DNA of 27,396 bases from a virus. Position numbers and translations under genes: made by a program. The stretch spans positions 1 through 27,396 of the IMG/VR virus record IMGVR_UViG_3300048691_000029, one strand, 5' to 3'. Positions 4,167 through 25,823 of this stretch are shown here, piece by piece. Every line of letters begins with the position of its first letter. The first letter of the stretch is position 1. Under the pieces are notes generated by a model that was given only the letters and a program-made list of their open reading frames with translations, did not search any database and had not been told where the DNA came from.

Positions 4167-4588
4167 TTCACTAACTTTCTGATAACATGGGTTAATATCT
4201 TTTCAGGTGTTACCCTGTACTTTTCCTCTAGTCCAAGCATTAAGGCGGTTAATTCGTGACAATACTCACGTTTTGAGTCTCGAATTTTGAACATTGTAAC
4301 AAAATCTAGCAGGCTACAAAAATCATAACCATGTCCAGCAACTTTAGAATAAGCAAGTAAAGCATCTACTTCTCCACTTGTGCCAAGGTCAAACCATTCG
4401 TAATGACTGGCTGTTTCAGCATCTAAGTCATAATCTCGCACCCCAGCACGGTCACGCCCGTTTTTCAGGGCTACCGCTTCATATAATCTACCGTTTATTT
4501 CAATGGCAGAATGTGAATATTGTGAACATAGAAGTATTCTGACAATCGTGTGATACCAGCTATTGCCACGTTTAAAACCTAGCTTCAT
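4163..4588 (-). CDS. Permuted papain-like hydrolase (YiiX/NlpC-P60 type)
   Basis: The product has 141 residues. The N-terminal half has the catalytic-His block YSHSAIEINGRLYEAVA (His26), and the C-terminal half has GYDFCSLLDF and REYCHELTALML with the candidate nucleophile Cys110. This His-before-Cys order is the circularly permuted arrangement of YiiX/YebB-like amidase-fold cysteine hydrolases. The family usually acts on peptidoglycan peptides or other amide/acyl bonds; the substrate is not determined here. It lies between the tail fibre gene and the lysis genes, overlapping both by 4 nt, so it could be a tail-associated wall hydrolase or a lysis factor. Confidence 0.7.
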   Translation of the reverse strand: MKLGFKRGNSWYHTIVRILLCSQYSHSAIEINGRLYEAVALKNGRDRAGVRDYDLDAETASHYEWFDLGTSGEVDALLAYSKVAGHGYDFCSLLDFVTMFKIRDSKREYCHELTALMLGLEEKYRVTPEKILTHVIRKLVK

Positions 4589-5946
4589 AGACGCGCATTA
4601 AATTCAATGTAGTTTGCCACCCCGTTTGGTATTTGTAAACCAACCCCAGCGCCTGCAGCACCTACCGCCGCATGGGTAACGTCCATCATTACCTGATTTT
4701 TTGAGCTGTAAACAGTTGACGCAGTAGCCGCAGTAATACCACCTGAATAATCAAGCTGTACGCCTGAAAATACAACTGTTGGCTTTGCATACATGGGTAC
4801 TGGAGGATTTATCCAAATACGCGAACCTGTTGTGCTTGATTGACGACCAGAACCCCAGCCAGTTATGCCGTCGATTCCCGTTACCCTTACGTGAAACCGT
4901 TGGCAATTAGCAATATCTTGTTGTGGGCTTACTTGTTCAAACGATGTTGGATTTGTGCCAATTTCAAATTGTAATTTTTGATGATACCCAACTGGTAGAG
5001 ATATAAATATCGTAGGGTCGCCATTATGTGTATATATTAATGGAGATATTCCTGAAGCAGTTGCCCCAATTTGTGCTGTGCCAGAAAACCCAGATAAAAC
5101 TAATTTATCACCAGCACGTAAACTAGACGGAGTTTCCACTGTTTGCAACAATGTCCCAGCCGTAATATTGCAGTCTTGCAACCCTGCTGTTGCTGCGTAA
5201 GTGCAGCCCCCAGCCCCTGCCCTCCAACAGTCATGCCCAAACGCTAGTGCAGCTAATGGGGTAAAATTAATATAGGAATCTTGATTTACAAAAAAACTAG
5301 CATTTTTCAATAAATTTTTTGCAATTCCATTAGGGACACCTAACGAATCTCTAGCTGCTTGCGAGTTAGGCAGCGACGGTTTAGTTGGACTAAGAATTGA
5401 ATAACTTAAAGCTGATAATCCACTATCTAAAGCTAAACTGTCATTTAAAAGCGTTACCGTAGTAAATCCTAATGAAAAGACAGAGCTTAAAACGCGACTG
5501 TACGCCGTGCCGCCTGTGTTTGTTGTTTTTACGCGCATACCTACTGGTAAAGTAAGCGTCTGGTCACCCGTAGCACTAAAAACAGTACCAGATACATACG
5601 ATATTGCAAAGGTAGCAGGCATCCATTCAGGCGTTGATAAAGCTACCTGAGAGGGGTCATTAATGCCTGTAATGTTGTCAAACGTATAAAGTGTAGTTAC
5701 ATCCGTACTGTCTTTAATGATGAATTTATAGGCAACCCCCGCGCTTAAAAAGATAGGGTTAGCCGTAGCGCCTAGACTGTTTAAAATGATTGGGTTAGTC
5801 TGTGCAATAGCACCCGCGCTAGTTGTCCAAGTGCCTGCGGGTGTTGATGTTCCTGCTAAGTAGGTGTAAATCTTTCCACCATTAAGCGGGTTTCCGTTAA
5901 CATCTACAATTTGACTGTTGCCGATAGGGCTTAAATATGCTGGCAT
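4585..5946 (-). CDS. Tail fibre / receptor-binding protein
   Basis: The product has 453 residues. The N-terminus, QIVDVNGNPLNGGKIYTYLA followed by GTSTPAGTW..T and NPIILNSLG, is the conserved virion-attachment domain found at the start of many podovirus tail fibres and spikes; GVAYKFIIKDS follows. The remainder is beta-rich and Gly/Ser/Thr-rich, consistent with a trimeric fibre. The receptor-binding part should be the C-terminal half, from about residue 215 (LLKNASFFVNQDSYINFTP). There is no catalytic spike signature I recognise. AAAGGA lies upstream of the ATG. It follows the ejection genes, the same place as tailspike gp9 in P22. Confidence 0.85.
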   Translation of the reverse strand: MPAYLSPIGNSQIVDVNGNPLNGGKIYTYLAGTSTPAGTWTTSAGAIAQTNPIILNSLGATANPIFLSAGVAYKFIIKDSTDVTTLYTFDNITGINDPSQVALSTPEWMPATFAISYVSGTVFSATGDQTLTLPVGMRVKTTNTGGTAYSRVLSSVFSLGFTTVTLLNDSLALDSGLSALSYSILSPTKPSLPNSQAARDSLGVPNGIAKNLLKNASFFVNQDSYINFTPLAALAFGHDCWRAGAGGCTYAATAGLQDCNITAGTLLQTVETPSSLRAGDKLVLSGFSGTAQIGATASGISPLIYTHNGDPTIFISLPVGYHQKLQFEIGTNPTSFEQVSPQQDIANCQRFHVRVTGIDGITGWGSGRQSSTTGSRIWINPPVPMYAKPTVVFSGVQLDYSGGITAATASTVYSSKNQVMMDVTHAAVGAAGAGVGLQIPNGVANYIEFNARL

Positions 5947-15518: not shown

Positions 15519-15557
15519 CCTGTTAGATAGAACAGGTACTATTGTAGCATATGCTAC
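15519..15557. other. Inverted repeats between the repeat-protein and scaffold genes
   Basis: The 62-base gap contains CCTGTT-AGATAG-AACAGG (15519-15536), a perfect six-base stem, and GTAGCATATGCTAC (15544-15557), a perfect fourteen-base palindrome touching the stop of the upstream gene. Closer to the scaffold ATG, GCC-GAAA-GGC (minus strand) forms a third small hairpin. No T-run follows, so these are not simple terminators. RNA processing sites, a protein-binding site, or control of scaffold translation are possible. Confidence 0.45.
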
Positions 15558-16396
15558 TAAATCATCATAGCAATTAATGTTGCAATAGCTTCGTCATCGT
15601 CCTGCGCTTGTTGCCGCATTTCATGAACTAATTCTAAATATATTTGTCGGTGTGTCGATTGGTACGGAATCCCCGCGCTAACCATGTAAGACCGCATTTG
15701 CGATTCACTTGCAATACGTTTTTTAGGCTGTACCGAAATCTCTGCTTTCTTTTCGATTAACTCGACAATATCAGGCTCTACATCATCGTAATGTCTTAGT
15801 TTTCTCGGTTTACTGCGCTTTGTTTCATTAGGGATAAACCCGCCGCCTATAGTCTGCCCGCCCGCTCGGACAATCGAAGCATCTTTACCGCTAAGTACAT
15901 AACTGCCAGAATTAGCAGTTAATGTATACCCACTAGCAATCGGCGTGTAAACAATATTTGCAGCATTGCCAGAGTAAGAATAAGAGCCAGCATTAGATGC
16001 TAGCTTTTTATTCCTATACACATTTGCGGGTAAACCGCTTAGAGCATAAGCACCTGTTGCAGAGGTTAATCTGTGACTATGAAGTACAGCCGCTGCCGAG
16101 CCATTTAATGTATACGCCCCTGTATTAGCTGTGAGCACGTATGCGCCAGCTATTGGGGTATAACTAATAATCGCAGCTACACCAGTTAAGGTATATGCGC
16201 CTGATACTGCGGTTAATTTATAGCTGTGTAATATGCCAGCTGCTACGCCTGTTAAAGCGTAAGCACCAGATACAGCTACTAAGCGCTTAGACCTTAGTAC
16301 ATTAGAAGATTGACCTGATAGCGAATAACTGCCAGCGTCTGCGGTAAGCGTGTAAGCCCCCGCACTCCCACCAGTTAGCGCTAGCAGTAATGACAT
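15557..16396 (-). CDS. Structural-region repeat protein (GAYxLTG repeats)
   Basis: The product has 279 residues. Residues 13-180 consist of repeated beta-type units with ten GAYTLTG-like cores, at residues 13, 22, 44, 66, 84, 93, 115, 137, 155 and 164. These positions show a 71-residue higher-order period. Repeats of this short type occur in other phage proteins near head genes. Residues 181-279 are different: a basic linker (ETKRSKPRKLRHYDD), then helices ending in QAQDDDEAIATLIAMMI. The gene lies between scaffold and the large 496-residue structural gene. Likely a surface-exposed fibre or decoration protein; this is inference from position and repeat character. Confidence 0.65.
   Translation of the reverse strand: MSLLLALTGGSAGAYTLTADAGSYSLSGQSSNVLRSKRLVAVSGAYALTGVAAGILHSYKLTAVSGAYTLTGVAAIISYTPIAGAYVLTANTGAYTLNGSAAAVLHSHRLTSATGAYALSGLPANVYRNKKLASNAGSYSYSGNAANIVYTPIASGYTLTANSGSYVLSGKDASIVRAGGQTIGGGFIPNETKRSKPRKLRHYDDVEPDIVELIEKKAEISVQPKKRIASESQMRSYMVSAGIPYQSTHRQIYLELVHEMRQQAQDDDEAIATLIAMMI
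15857..16360 (-). repeat. Coding repeat array with 71-codon super-period
   Basis: Codons 13-83 (16360-16148), 84-154 (16147-15935) and a partial third unit, 155-180 (15934-15857), align with each other. Each full unit contains cores spaced 9, 22, 22 and 18 residues and ends with YTPIA (residues 79-83 and 150-154). By eye about half of the residues are identical between the first two units. Confidence 0.75.
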
Positions 16397-16401
16397 TTAG
16401 C

Positions 16402-17892
16402 TTATTCCCAACCGTACAGTGGTTGCCATGTAAAGCGAATAGCCTGCGATGCTGTTGCCGTGCCAACCACAAAAGTACCAACGAGCTGCACAAATTCGCC
16501 CGGATTAACAAAGATAGGAGCGTCGCCTGTATCAAAGTTAATAATACCGTTCTTAGGACCTTCGCCAATTTGCATACCAATTAACCAAGTCATAAAGCCT
16601 AGGGCAGTACGTCTCGGCGCTTTGGTTGTCGCTGATTCAGTCGTTGCTAGTGATACCGCTGTATGACCGTAAGCTAGTGAGAATTGAATCGCTGTAGAAG
16701 TAGTTGCTACTGCCGCGCCCGTGTTGACGGCATCTACACGAACACCACGAAGCACCAAGCGACGACCAGCCGCATTGACTGTAGCTACTGGCACTTGATA
16801 GCTGGCAAAAATCAAGTCAGTTACCGCCGTAGCCTGTGCAGTGACTAAACCTTGACCACCCAAGCCAGCGGGTAAGTTAGCTGTTAAAGCTGTGTTTGTT
16901 GGTATGGCTGCTACGGGTGCGGTACTGTTTGGCAGTGTAGCCAAACCGCCCATCGTGCCGCCTGATAGACCTTGATAAGAACCTAGTGTGCGAGAGCCTG
17001 AAACGCTAGGCGTTGACGCGAAGTTAACACCACCTTGACGCACGTTATACGCACCTACAAATGCACTCAGTGCACCAGAAGCCGCACCACCAACAATACG
17101 ATGCTTAAAGAACACTTGACCACCAGCCGCCATACTCATGCGTGGCTGTGCTACTGGCAAAGACAATCGCCCCATAGCCACCGCGCCCGTTCCATCATTA
17201 ACCCAGAACATGGCTTCAACCATTGATTGATAGATGATGAACTGATAGCGTTTATTGTTTGTATACAGCCACGTACCCGTACCGCCTGATAATGGGAAAA
17301 CGCCTGTAGATGTCTCAGTGCCGTTATATGAGCAAATACCTTGCAACCCAGCACTAGACAATCGGAAAAACACACCGTCAGCAGGAGCGATTAATTGTGT
17401 GCCAGCTTGACCAACACCCCATTCAACAAAAGTATTTGTCGCAGGCTGGGCGCTAAATGCGATTTCAGAATCAAGCGATAGCGTAGTCGTTCCTGTGCAC
17501 GGGAAAAACGCATATGTGGATAGCTGTACGCCCGTGGTAATGGTAGTGATAGCAGCCGAGTTAGTCGTGAACTGTCCCGCTGTCCAAGTTGCAGCCATTG
17601 TGGTTGATGCAAAGTTGTGTTTACCTGTGTTTTGCGCCACGTAGTTAAACACTTCTTCATCAAATAGACAGTCCTGAGATACGCGCGCGCGGTAATCAGC
17701 ATCGACCTCCAAAGGACGAAGCAATGGCGCTGCGGTTAAAGCACCGCCGTCAACTTCCCCCATCGCACGGACTGAGCCAATTTGCATCGGGTCAGTGTAT
17801 GCGTCGCTCTCAAGCTCCATTTTCATGCGGCCTTCGGGTGTAACTTGTACGCCGTTGCCTGTGCTGCCTACTATTGTTGTATCTAATGCCAT
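16402..17892 (-). CDS. Large structural protein of the head accessory module
   Basis: The product has 496 residues. The N-terminus (VQVTPEGRMKMELESDAYTD, LRPLEVDADYRARVSQDCLF) looks like a virion-binding part. The middle (about residues 95-290) is beta-rich with TFVEWGVGQAG, YQFIIYQSMVEAMFWVNDGT and similar, suggesting a lectin-like jelly-roll. The C-terminal part has more beta strands (LVLRGVRVDAVNTGAAV, APIFVNPGEFVQLVGTF). No family is recognised with certainty. Gene position between portal and scaffold suggests a capsid decoration or head-fibre protein. AAAGGA precedes the ATG. Confidence 0.7.
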   Translation of the reverse strand: MALDTTIVGSTGNGVQVTPEGRMKMELESDAYTDPMQIGSVRAMGEVDGGALTAAPLLRPLEVDADYRARVSQDCLFDEEVFNYVAQNTGKHNFASTTMAATWTAGQFTTNSAAITTITTGVQLSTYAFFPCTGTTTLSLDSEIAFSAQPATNTFVEWGVGQAGTQLIAPADGVFFRLSSAGLQGICSYNGTETSTGVFPLSGGTGTWLYTNNKRYQFIIYQSMVEAMFWVNDGTGAVAMGRLSLPVAQPRMSMAAGGQVFFKHRIVGGAASGALSAFVGAYNVRQGGVNFASTPSVSGSRTLGSYQGLSGGTMGGLATLPNSTAPVAAIPTNTALTANLPAGLGGQGLVTAQATAVTDLIFASYQVPVATVNAAGRRLVLRGVRVDAVNTGAAVATTSTAIQFSLAYGHTAVSLATTESATTKAPRRTALGFMTWLIGMQIGEGPKNGIINFDTGDAPIFVNPGEFVQLVGTFVVGTATASQAIRFTWQPLYGWE

Positions 17893-17904
17893 GATATTTT
17901 CCTT

Positions 17905-18198
17905 TTAATCTGCCCACACCCAGCGAACTTGAAATTGCCCTTGTAGCTTATCTAAGCATCGGGCGTGAATCGTAAACCCCGTAGCGGCTGTGGGTGTACC
18001 GCACGTCAACCCTACTAATACAGCAAAGTAACGATGGTCATTAGCCGTATGAGTCCCCGCTGTGTCATCTCCCATCACATAAGCCTCAGCCTTTGATGTG
18101 GCAGTGATAGAGCCTTGACCCGTTACCGCTACACTTGCCTCACTAGTGCCGGGGAACGAGCCAAAATCAATCGTTGCTGTGCCTTGACCTGTTGCCAT
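17905..18198 (-). CDS. Small beta-rich structural protein
   Basis: The product has 97 residues, mostly beta. TGQGTATIDFGSFPGTSEAS followed by VAVTGQGSI, and GFTIHARCLDKLQGQFQVRW before VWAD, form a pattern I recognise from small virion-associated proteins of many phages. It starts at a TAATG overlap with the preceding gene, so the pair is probably made together. Likely a decoration or head-fibre base component; exact role unknown. Confidence 0.65.
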   Translation of the reverse strand: MATGQGTATIDFGSFPGTSEASVAVTGQGSITATSKAEAYVMGDDTAGTHTANDHRYFAVLVGLTCGTPTAATGFTIHARCLDKLQGQFQVRWVWAD

Positions 18199-18611
18199 TA
18201 TTGAACCGTATAAACGCCGTTAGTTTGGTCTAGGTCAACCGTTACAGTCTCACCCAGCGCAACAACTTGGCTTGAACCATAGTCCCAATATGAAATGACC
18301 TGCGCTAGTGTGACGTTGTATAAGTGAGCGTATCGGAAAGTAAACCCGCCAACCGTTGCAGTCCAAACCGCTGGGTCAGCTAGAACCAGCTTATAAATAC
18401 CACCTGTTGACGCTGCCGAAGTAACCGTTACCGCATTACCGCCTGCGGTATATCCCCCCGCTGTCGCAAGCTCTGATACAGAGGCGGCATTAGTTGCTGT
18501 CGCCACGTTAGGGGCTGTGTTTGACAAGATGATTGAATAACTGTCAGTGCCAGCATTGCCAGCTTCCATCATCTTCTCGATTGCTAACTCGTATTTTACG
18601 TATGCTGCCAT
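18198..18611 (-). CDS. Small structural protein with YWDYGSS motif
   Basis: The product has 137 residues. A short helical start (YVKYELAIEKMMEAG) is followed by beta strands. The C-terminal block AHLYNVTLAQVISYWDYGSS followed by VVALGETVTVDLDQTNGVYT matches a common phage structural signature (L..YWDYGSS...GET.TVD) in head or neck modules. It follows the portal gene by one base. Its role is not established; the conserved motif and position support a virion protein. Confidence 0.7.
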   Translation of the reverse strand: MAAYVKYELAIEKMMEAGNAGTDSYSIILSNTAPNVATATNAASVSELATAGGYTAGGNAVTVTSAASTGGIYKLVLADPAVWTATVGGFTFRYAHLYNVTLAQVISYWDYGSSQVVALGETVTVDLDQTNGVYTVQ

Positions 18612-24128: not shown

Positions 24129-24731
24129 TTATCTTGCGATTTCATACAATCCCATCTCTTGATTCATTCTTACCATGTCTTGCAAAGCGGTTAGGCTTTT
24201 CAATTTTGCTTTGTAAGTGGCTTCAATATCCCTTAAATCGTCTTTTGTGTAGTGGTTTAGCTTATGGTCGCACTCTAGGGCTTCGACCCGTTCTAGCCCG
24301 ATTCTTTTAACCAGTCCAATGCGGTAATTCGCAGCATTGCCTGAAAGTTGTTTATTACAATGTTTGAGTTGTGCATGTACGTTATCTTCATTAAATCTTA
24401 AATTTACTCTAGCTCCTACGCTTAACCAGTGACCCGCATCACATACGCCACCAGTAGCGCCAGAATCCCATGCAATAGGCTTATCACAACAGATGCATAA
24501 CCTTCCATAGTCACGCGCTCGAATGTAAGCATTAAAAGCTTTTTGTGCTTTTTCAACTAATTGCGGCTTTGTTGCTAGTTTCTCCAGCTTTTCCTTAGTC
24601 TCGCGTTTATCCTGCATTACTTTTTTTTGCTTGGCCTTGTCAACAACTGCCATTCCACACTGAATAGAGCATGCTTTTTGAAAAGCGCTGCGTTTAATGT
24701 ACTCAGCTTTACAAATAGAACATTTACTCAT
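24129..24731 (-). CDS. ninG: NinG/Rap family recombination protein
   Basis: The product has 200 residues from the ATG at 24731. The N-terminal zinc-finger-like block CSICKAEYIKR...CSIQC gives Cys4, Cys7, Cys21 and Cys25. A basic helix follows, then AFNAYIRARDYGRLCICC, CDAGHWLSVGARVNLRFNED (residues 97-116) and HCNKQLSGNAANYR, the standard NinG (lambda Rap) core. Lambda Rap is a structure-specific nuclease for branched recombination intermediates. The C-terminus LTALQDMVRMNQEMGLYE resembles that of the 1393-1770 product. The start overlaps the upstream gene by eight bases. Confidence 0.88.
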   Translation of the reverse strand: MSKCSICKAEYIKRSAFQKACSIQCGMAVVDKAKQKKVMQDKRETKEKLEKLATKPQLVEKAQKAFNAYIRARDYGRLCICCDKPIAWDSGATGGVCDAGHWLSVGARVNLRFNEDNVHAQLKHCNKQLSGNAANYRIGLVKRIGLERVEALECDHKLNHYTKDDLRDIEATYKAKLKSLTALQDMVRMNQEMGLYEIAR

Positions 24732-24930
24732 TGTGCACCGGTGTTGGATATTCCAATTGATTGACAAAGCTACGGTCTATCCCGTTTTTATGCATGTCCA
24801 TTGCTAGACCAAGTACCGCTGTACATGCAGCGCCTCGGTCTTCCTCGTTTGCATAATTCTTGACGTTTTCGTCAATTAGCTGCAATACCAGCATGGCGGT
24901 TAAGCGCTCTTTGATTGTAAATTCATTCAT
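24724..24930 (-). CDS. Small helical hypothetical protein
   Basis: The product has 68 residues and is largely helical (IKERLTAMLVLQLIDENVKN, RGAACTAVLGLAMDMHKNGI). No motif or membrane helix of convincing length. It is coupled at both ends, with ATGA at 24927-24930 and an eight-base overlap with ninG. Its place in the nin-like group is the only clue to its role. Confidence 0.65.
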   Translation of the reverse strand: MNEFTIKERLTAMLVLQLIDENVKNYANEEDRGAACTAVLGLAMDMHKNGIDRSFVNQLEYPTPVHNE

Positions 24931-25157: not shown

Positions 25158-25440
25158 ACCCCAATCCTTTTGCATAGCTTTGTAGATTTATTTTTTTTTC
25201 ATTGCCTAAAAAATGCGCTTTTATGCAGGCTTCCTGCCATTCAAAGATTAGCTTTATTGGTAATTTGTTATCAACATCGTAAACAATATCTGACATGCTG
25301 AAATAGTTGTCACCAAAGCACAGCATCCCCGTTAAATCGTCGTTTGTAGCCCACTCAAACTCTACGCCGTGGGCTTTTTCAAATGCTTTGATGTAACCCA
25401 TGATTGCATCGTCTAACGCTTTTTTTAGTTTTTTACTCAT
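25141..25440 (-). CDS. Small hypothetical protein of the nin-like group
   Basis: The product has 99 residues. The N-terminus is basic and helical (SKKLKKALDDAIMGYIKAFE), followed by an acidic, aromatic middle (FEWATNDDLTGMLCFGDNYF) and a helix near the end. No known motif. ATGA coupling to ninB. The character fits a small soluble early/middle phage protein; function unknown. Confidence 0.65.
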   Translation of the reverse strand: MSKKLKKALDDAIMGYIKAFEKAHGVEFEWATNDDLTGMLCFGDNYFSMSDIVYDVDNKLPIKLIFEWQEACIKAHFLGNEKKINLQSYAKGLGYDQVQ

Positions 25441-25823
25441 AAATTCACCCCTCTCAATACAGCCGTGGCATTTAAAAATTCTAAGTAGTCACTAAACTCT
25501 TTTTTACTCATTTTGCTAGTTCTCATCCCTAAAAATACTAAGCCGCCATCTAGCCCCTGAGCTACTCGGTTTCCCTCTTGTCTAAAAGCTGCGGTTAGGA
25601 TTGTTTTCCAGTCTTCAGGTTCTAGCTTGGTCATTACCCCATTGATTGACCATGCTAGCTGTTCACTGAAGGCTTGTAAAATTACCCATTGCAATGCATT
25701 TGCATCTAATGAGCGTGTAGGCTCTGCAACCGTAACCTTAAAGCCGTCCTGCGCTGACTTAACCGCTTCTATAGCGTTTTGACGTGCTGTAGGGTTGGCC
25801 AGTATGTAAACTTTTTTAGCCAT
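25437..25823 (-). CDS. ninB: NinB family recombination protein
   Basis: The product has 128 residues; lambda NinB (Orf) has 146. Family features: RSLDANALQWVILQAFSEQL, EDWKTILTAAFRQEGNRVAQ, GGLVFLGMRTSKMSKKEFSD and YLEFLNATAVLRGV. Lambda NinB/Orf is a recombination mediator that binds single-stranded DNA and helps load strand-annealing protein. Together with NinG it suggests a lambda-like recombination set. The start overlaps the end of a 50-residue gene by eight bases. Confidence 0.88.
   Translation of the reverse strand: MAKKVYILANPTARQNAIEAVKSAQDGFKVTVAEPTRSLDANALQWVILQAFSEQLAWSINGVMTKLEPEDWKTILTAAFRQEGNRVAQGLDGGLVFLGMRTSKMSKKEFSDYLEFLNATAVLRGVNL

Follow-up and report, generated by a model that had tools for sequence, protein, structure and literature searches.

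The slot gene and its repeat array

The window analyzed here is a 27,396-base virus record (IMG/VR record IMGVR_UViG_3300048691_000029) whose minus strand carries a P22-like head module with portal, p137, p97, p496, repeat protein, scaffold, coat, adaptor and gp10-like genes; homologs of the P22 portal, scaffold and coat proteins lie around the repeat gene (PF16510, 3e-155; PF11651, 5e-40; phrog_8865, 1e-31). The repeat protein, designated here the slot protein (279 amino acids; 15557–16396, on the minus strand like p137 and every feature of the cassette given below), is composed of an N-terminal peptide, a repeat array and a helical C-terminal domain, and it has no sequence match in Pfam, PHROG, NCBIfam or PDB. 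Its gene closes a cassette that starts with p97 (97 amino acids; 17905–18198), the most conserved member, and continues with p496 (496 amino acids; 16402–17892), for which a ConA/L-type-lectin fold is predicted. These three genes stand together in many different phages.

The array (residues 13–177; 15866–16360) is supported by self-comparison, by the anatomy of its units and by the strands of the structural model. A first-pass annotation of this DNA had listed GAYxLTG-like cores at residues 13, 22, 44, 66, 84, 93, 115, 137, 155 and 164, and the string YTPIA at residues 79 and 150; we verified all of these positions, that at residue 155 being an SGYTLTA variant. It had also noticed a period of 71 residues, which is borne out by a self-comparison of residues 1–180 with z scores computed against composition-preserving shuffles: shift 71 is the best diagonal, with 46/109 positions identical (z = 12.0), followed by shifts 22 (z = 7.5), 49 (71 − 22; z = 6.5), 9 (z = 5.5) and 93 (71 + 22; z = 5.3). 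The 71-residue periodicity is therefore far beyond chance.

The array resolves into seven units, starting at residues 22, 44, 66, 93, 115, 137 and 164, with lengths of 22, 22, 27, 22, 22, 27 and 22 residues. The 27-residue unit is an ordinary unit with YTPIA placed ahead of its second strand (GAYTLTGVAAIIS-YTPIA-GAYVLTANT vs. GAYALTGVAAGILHSYKLTAVS), and the two insertions, or joints, occupy residues 79–83 (16148–16162) and 150–154 (15935–15949). The cores at residues 84 and 155 are not units, being the second strand of the YTPIA-bearing unit, and the core at residue 13 is the same strand at the opening of the array. The period of 71 in the window is thus a 5-residue YTPIA-type insertion on every third 22-residue unit (22 + 22 + 27).

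From cores paired exactly 71 residues apart, and from the recurrence of YTPIA, the first-pass annotation had deduced that the protein arose by duplicating a block of four cores, and not single short repeats; the strong diagonal at shift 71 and the YTPIA spacing speak for such a tandem growth. Neither unit similarity, nor codons, nor the spacing in relatives supported this. The pairs of units at shift 71 are not closer than other pairings (permutation p = 0.11), and the best pair (units 44 and 93) is 49 residues apart. Likewise, 15 of the 46 residues that recur unchanged at shift 71 use the same codon, vs. 19 predicted from codon usage alone; since the codons are randomized, any duplication would be too old to have left a trace in the DNA, and a block duplication of old date is possible. 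In the relatives described below (loci numbered with the prefix L), the step of 22 residues is constant and a longer one (25–30 residues) comes after two to eight units or never, as illustrated by L004 (22 × 6, 26, 22 × 5), L015 (22 × 8, 25, 22 × 4), L053 (22 × 3, 29) and L014 (22 × 8); L027, whose C-terminal domain is related to that of the window, has a shorter array. Because the interval between insertions varies among relatives, 71 residues is not a unit of the family. Together, the seven-unit anatomy, the lack of a block signal and the variable spacing of the insertions indicate that the period of 71 is a local arrangement (3 × 22 + 5), and make a true super-repeat quite improbable.

Constant and variable parts of the slot proteins

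Scans of IMG/VR with p97 retrieved 72 and then 340 relatives, of which 80 were kept. The slot was taken as the open reading frame (ORF) after p97 and p496, with 69 distinct cases called; 61 of the 69 start with [M/V/L][S/A]LLL, mostly as MSLLLALT, and these 61 were chosen for analysis by that start ([MVL][SA]LLL). The conservation of LLL (61/61) is in consequence partly a selection effect, whereas A6 (52/61) and L7 (55/61) are outside the selection criterion. The peptide reads MSLLLALTGG in the window (16367–16396). Synonymous codons vary freely along it, ruling out a constraint on this start at the DNA level, and, as judged from these codons, the peptide is conserved at the protein level only. 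Neither the repeat strings nor those of the N-peptide were found in a search of the literature. The C-terminal GWE codons of p496 sit directly ahead of the slot start, and the sequence TGGGA occurs at most 25 nt before this start in 42/61 loci, mostly inside those codons (16397–16420 in the window); it could be a ribosome-binding site for the slot gene, with translational coupling to p496.

The first-pass annotation had anticipated a modular region varying in length among relatives, and in this it was right: the slot proteins span 107–646 amino acids and carry anything between zero and about 20 units. Significant internal repeats were found in 49/61 and none in the other 12/61. The fundamental period is 20–24 residues in 45 of the 49 repeat-bearing slot proteins, vs. 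5/23 other repeat-bearing ORFs from the same loci (p = 4e-9), a control set that consists of 28 repeat-bearing ORFs less five that were slot genes with other starts. Profile comparisons revealed clear similarity to the window unit only in some arrays of the GAYxLTG type. The idea that all arrays derive from one homologous repeat was considered and rejected, as most of the other arrays score no better than column-permuted controls, and we do not claim homology. Since the period of 20–24 residues is common while most arrays lack similarity to the window unit, the period is kept where sequence similarity is undetectable.

The C-terminal domain of the window protein (residues 178–279; 15560–15865) ends with an acidic-then-hydrophobic tail, AQDDDEAIATLIAMMI (15560–15607), and tails of this kind end 33/59 complete slot proteins (odds ratio 22, p = 2e-24 vs. 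other ORFs). As a query in viral contigs the domain gave no confirmed relative by that method; blastp comparisons show that L027 and L136 share it. The slot protein is therefore tripartite: the MSLLLAL(T) peptide is conserved, the middle part, in most cases an array of ~22-residue repeats, is highly variable, and the C-terminal domain often bears the acidic-hydrophobic tail. Outside the cassette, a P22-like record with portal and coat homologs (L012) encodes a protein (4380–5717) in which an unrelated N-terminal domain precedes YTLTADT-type repeats and, at the end, a DDEAAAILLLAA tail. Matches to its N-terminal portion occur in proteins of Sinorhizobium phages phiM12, phiM7, phiM19 and phiN3. 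The L012 protein belongs to phrog_38872/phrog_27712 (function unknown), neither of which is matched by the window protein, and it has no nearby p97/p496 match and no MSLLLALT start.

The AlphaFold2 (AF2) model of the window protein contains approximately three short strands per 22 residues, with a predicted local distance difference test score (pLDDT) of about 60–69 over the array, and helices at residues 231–240 and 245–278, in the C-terminal domain. The beta fold proposed by the first-pass annotation is thus predicted, but with low confidence only; a Foldseek search with this weak model retrieved beta-helices among its matches, all with E > 1, and no significant match in PDB.

Exchange between phages

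The window shares with records L002 and L003 a segment of 2.76 kb at 87.6% identity (15878–18611), from the start of p137 (18198–18611) to the end of the array, and no DNA similarity elsewhere. L003 is also related to L020, with 92.4% identity before the cassette, 70% across p97, p496 and the first slot codons, and 90.5% from the C-terminal domain of the slot protein onward. In a base-level alignment, the left joint is the start codon of p137 and the right joint is the border of the array and the C-terminal domain, at around residues 173–176 of the slot protein (15869–15880), where the similarity of L003 to the window ends and beyond which L003 follows L020. This three-way pattern of identity indicates that L003 is a phage of the L020 type carrying a cassette of the window type. 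L002 and L003, which belong to two separate assemblies, are 99.9% identical over 6.66 kb including both joints, which argues against misassembly. The variation of the slot gene is here an exchange of whole segments and, read from these genome comparisons, the entire cassette is exchanged between phages, the front part of the slot gene accompanying the lectin gene, and the C-terminal domain the portal and head genes of the host phage. Among pairs with related C-terminal domains, the portals are homologous in 13/14, vs. 90/581.

The same data could be read as those of a passive spacer or decoration, whose repeats would have no role in exchange and whose tripartite look would be ordinary phage mosaicism, with joints located where they are harmless. 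Phage genomes are mosaics, only one three-way exchange has been resolved to the base, and the link between C-terminal domain and portal could be plain linkage outside the exchanged segment, pairs with related C-terminal domains being also higher in p496 similarity. However, the joint coincides with the boundary between the array and the C-terminal domain, the N-peptide and a period of ~22 residues persist where the sequence does not, and several pairs (WIN-L024, L018-L019) lose DNA similarity 30–40 bases into the slot gene, just past the MSLLLALT codons. We therefore consider a passive spacer unlikely.

The cassette occurs in P22-like and siphovirus-like contigs and in contigs of 94–206 kb (L051, L061, L062), and the large ORFs upstream fall into 12 unrelated clusters, with the P22-like cluster accounting for 24/35 loci. 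These contexts bear on whether the slot protein belongs to the tail, as a fibre or a tip adhesin, or is a head-linked arm. In two siphovirus-like contigs (L034, 855–9455, and L035) the cassette is three small genes behind a 1639-amino-acid homolog of the central tail fiber J, and in L050 a tail-tube gene lies downstream, as would be expected for a tail adhesin. Conversely, in the window and 23 other loci it adjoins a portal gene belonging to the P22-like cluster and is distant from the tail genes, and the surroundings in L028 (terminase and head genes) and L121 (portal and protease) are likewise those of head and packaging modules, so that a tail adhesin appears rather doubtful.

The position before p97 is usually occupied by a gene for 125–155 amino acids belonging to several unrelated families, including the p137 type (45/141 loci), a 'STTLRNAxLDAITTAVG' type and others. 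Beside its P22-like head module, the window carries lambda-type NinG (24129–24767) and NinB (25437–25823) genes and a phage lysozyme (3113–3640). The p97 match in a Verrucomicrobia metagenome-assembled genome (L087) is single and weak, too little to name a host.

The lectin-fold partner, a proposed role and known systems

The AF2 model of p496, which was aligned in 34 members, has an overall pLDDT of 72.7, mostly 80–93 over residues 70–290, and comprises an L-type-lectin/ConA-like fold at residues ~70–300 followed by a second beta domain. Foldseek matched this predicted ConA-like beta-sandwich to ERGIC-53 and legume lectins in PDB, with E down to 3e-8 and probability 1.00. The modelled fold is thus that of these proteins, although identity to L-type lectins is ~10%, p496 is the partner gene of a repeat protein, and sugar binding is putative. 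Neither p97 nor p496 has a PHROG match, and the window copies gave no match at E 1e-3 among 50,697 phage records. The p496 proteins of the window (16402–17892) and L003 (3043–4530) are near-identical up to about residue 310, with clearly greater divergence beyond. In a BFVD search, the p496 model matched, over most of its length, uncharacterized proteins of haloarchaeal tailed viruses (HGTV-1, HHTV-1, HHTV-2 and HFTV1). An independent link between the array and a lectin-like domain is provided by L010, in which a single chain (4287–5351) contains a Laminin_G_3 (ConA-like) domain (E 8e-20) and then GAYxLTG repeats, including a YVP joint.

This fusion, the constant place of the slot gene beside structural genes and a lectin-fold partner, and the adjacency of p137, which matches the C-terminal domain of a virion structural protein family (phrog_24741, 3e-11), all argue against the slot protein being an intracellular or secreted product of a passenger gene. 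Such a non-virion protein would fit with the high variability of the sequence, and the slot protein is a putative virion component, but we find this explanation highly improbable.

We propose instead, giving it about even weight, that the slot protein is the exchangeable arm of an adhesion cassette on the virion surface, a Hoc-like modular arm that would join an exchangeable lectin to a phage-specific structure. The N-peptide would dock on the p97/p496 assembly, and the C-terminal helix and tail on a virion protein specific to the backbone. The array would form a beta-solenoid spacer with one ~22-residue turn per unit and the insertions as side loops, setting the reach and the exposed surface of the lectin head; a solenoid would have successive turns of ~20–25 residues with short strands in register, to which the predominant period and the modelled low-pLDDT strands may correspond. 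Swapping the middle part and the C-terminal domain would fit one lectin cassette to different virions. More tentatively, and with somewhat less confidence than in the arm itself, we suggest that p97, p496 and the slot gene may constitute a previously undescribed mobile virion adhesion cassette, crossing phage architectures with the ~22-residue turn fixed and its sequence replaced wholesale, the end pieces acting as plug and socket that refit one lectin head.

Several points weigh against the proposed arm, besides the single resolved exchange and the possible linkage already discussed. With a mean pLDDT of 61 and a predicted template modelling score of 0.46, the model of the array is weak and has no significant fold match, 26/59 complete slot proteins lack the acidic-hydrophobic tail, and the position of the cassette differs among phages (head module, behind J, or near the tail tube). 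Additionally, location in the virion is suggested by gene position and p137, and the docking roles of both ends of the slot protein are proposals.

Missing from the first-pass annotation were the conservation of the N-terminal peptide, the exchangeable nature of the C-terminal domain and the mobile cassette. What appeared to be a single-protein curiosity belongs to a widespread, unnamed cassette, present in at least 340 places in IMG/VR and with two genes lacking a PHROG, by which surface functions seem to pass from one uncultured phage to another, unrelated one. The plug-and-socket model of the exchange of adhesive parts is directly testable, and the arrays offer a natural set of repeats of fixed length and variable sequence for structural work.

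Among known systems, the two-gene capsid turret of HFTV1 carries a putative carbohydrate-binding head and is proposed to serve in head-first attachment (PMC12494034). That head has galactose-binding-like and deacetylase-like domains, and its likeness to our cassette is an analogy only; the identity of the HFTV1 protein matched by p496 as a turret protein was considered and is not established. The BACON proteins of crAss-like phages form arrays with a variable number of repeats near structural genes, in a region spread horizontally between dissimilar phages (PMC6949934), and their spread resembles that of the slot arrays. They are of another domain family and size, and the passages considered describe neither an invariant N-peptide nor an exchange joint within the gene; the slot protein has no Ig-like or BACON match in Pfam at E up to 1, and its 22-residue unit is far shorter than an Ig domain. 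T4 Hoc, whose variable beta domains sit on a conserved anchor at one end, has been proposed as an environment-facing fibre (PMC10385173). The searches of Pfam, PHROG, NCBIfam and PDB, all without a match for the slot protein, did not reveal the capsid-binding C-terminal domain of Hoc. Instead of the ~90-residue Ig-like domains of Hoc, the slot protein has ~22-residue units, together with a conserved N-peptide, a C-terminal domain exchanged with the backbone and a lectin fold in a separate gene. The slot protein has a similar architecture and an end that might likewise serve as an anchor, and Hoc would be its nearest working analog.
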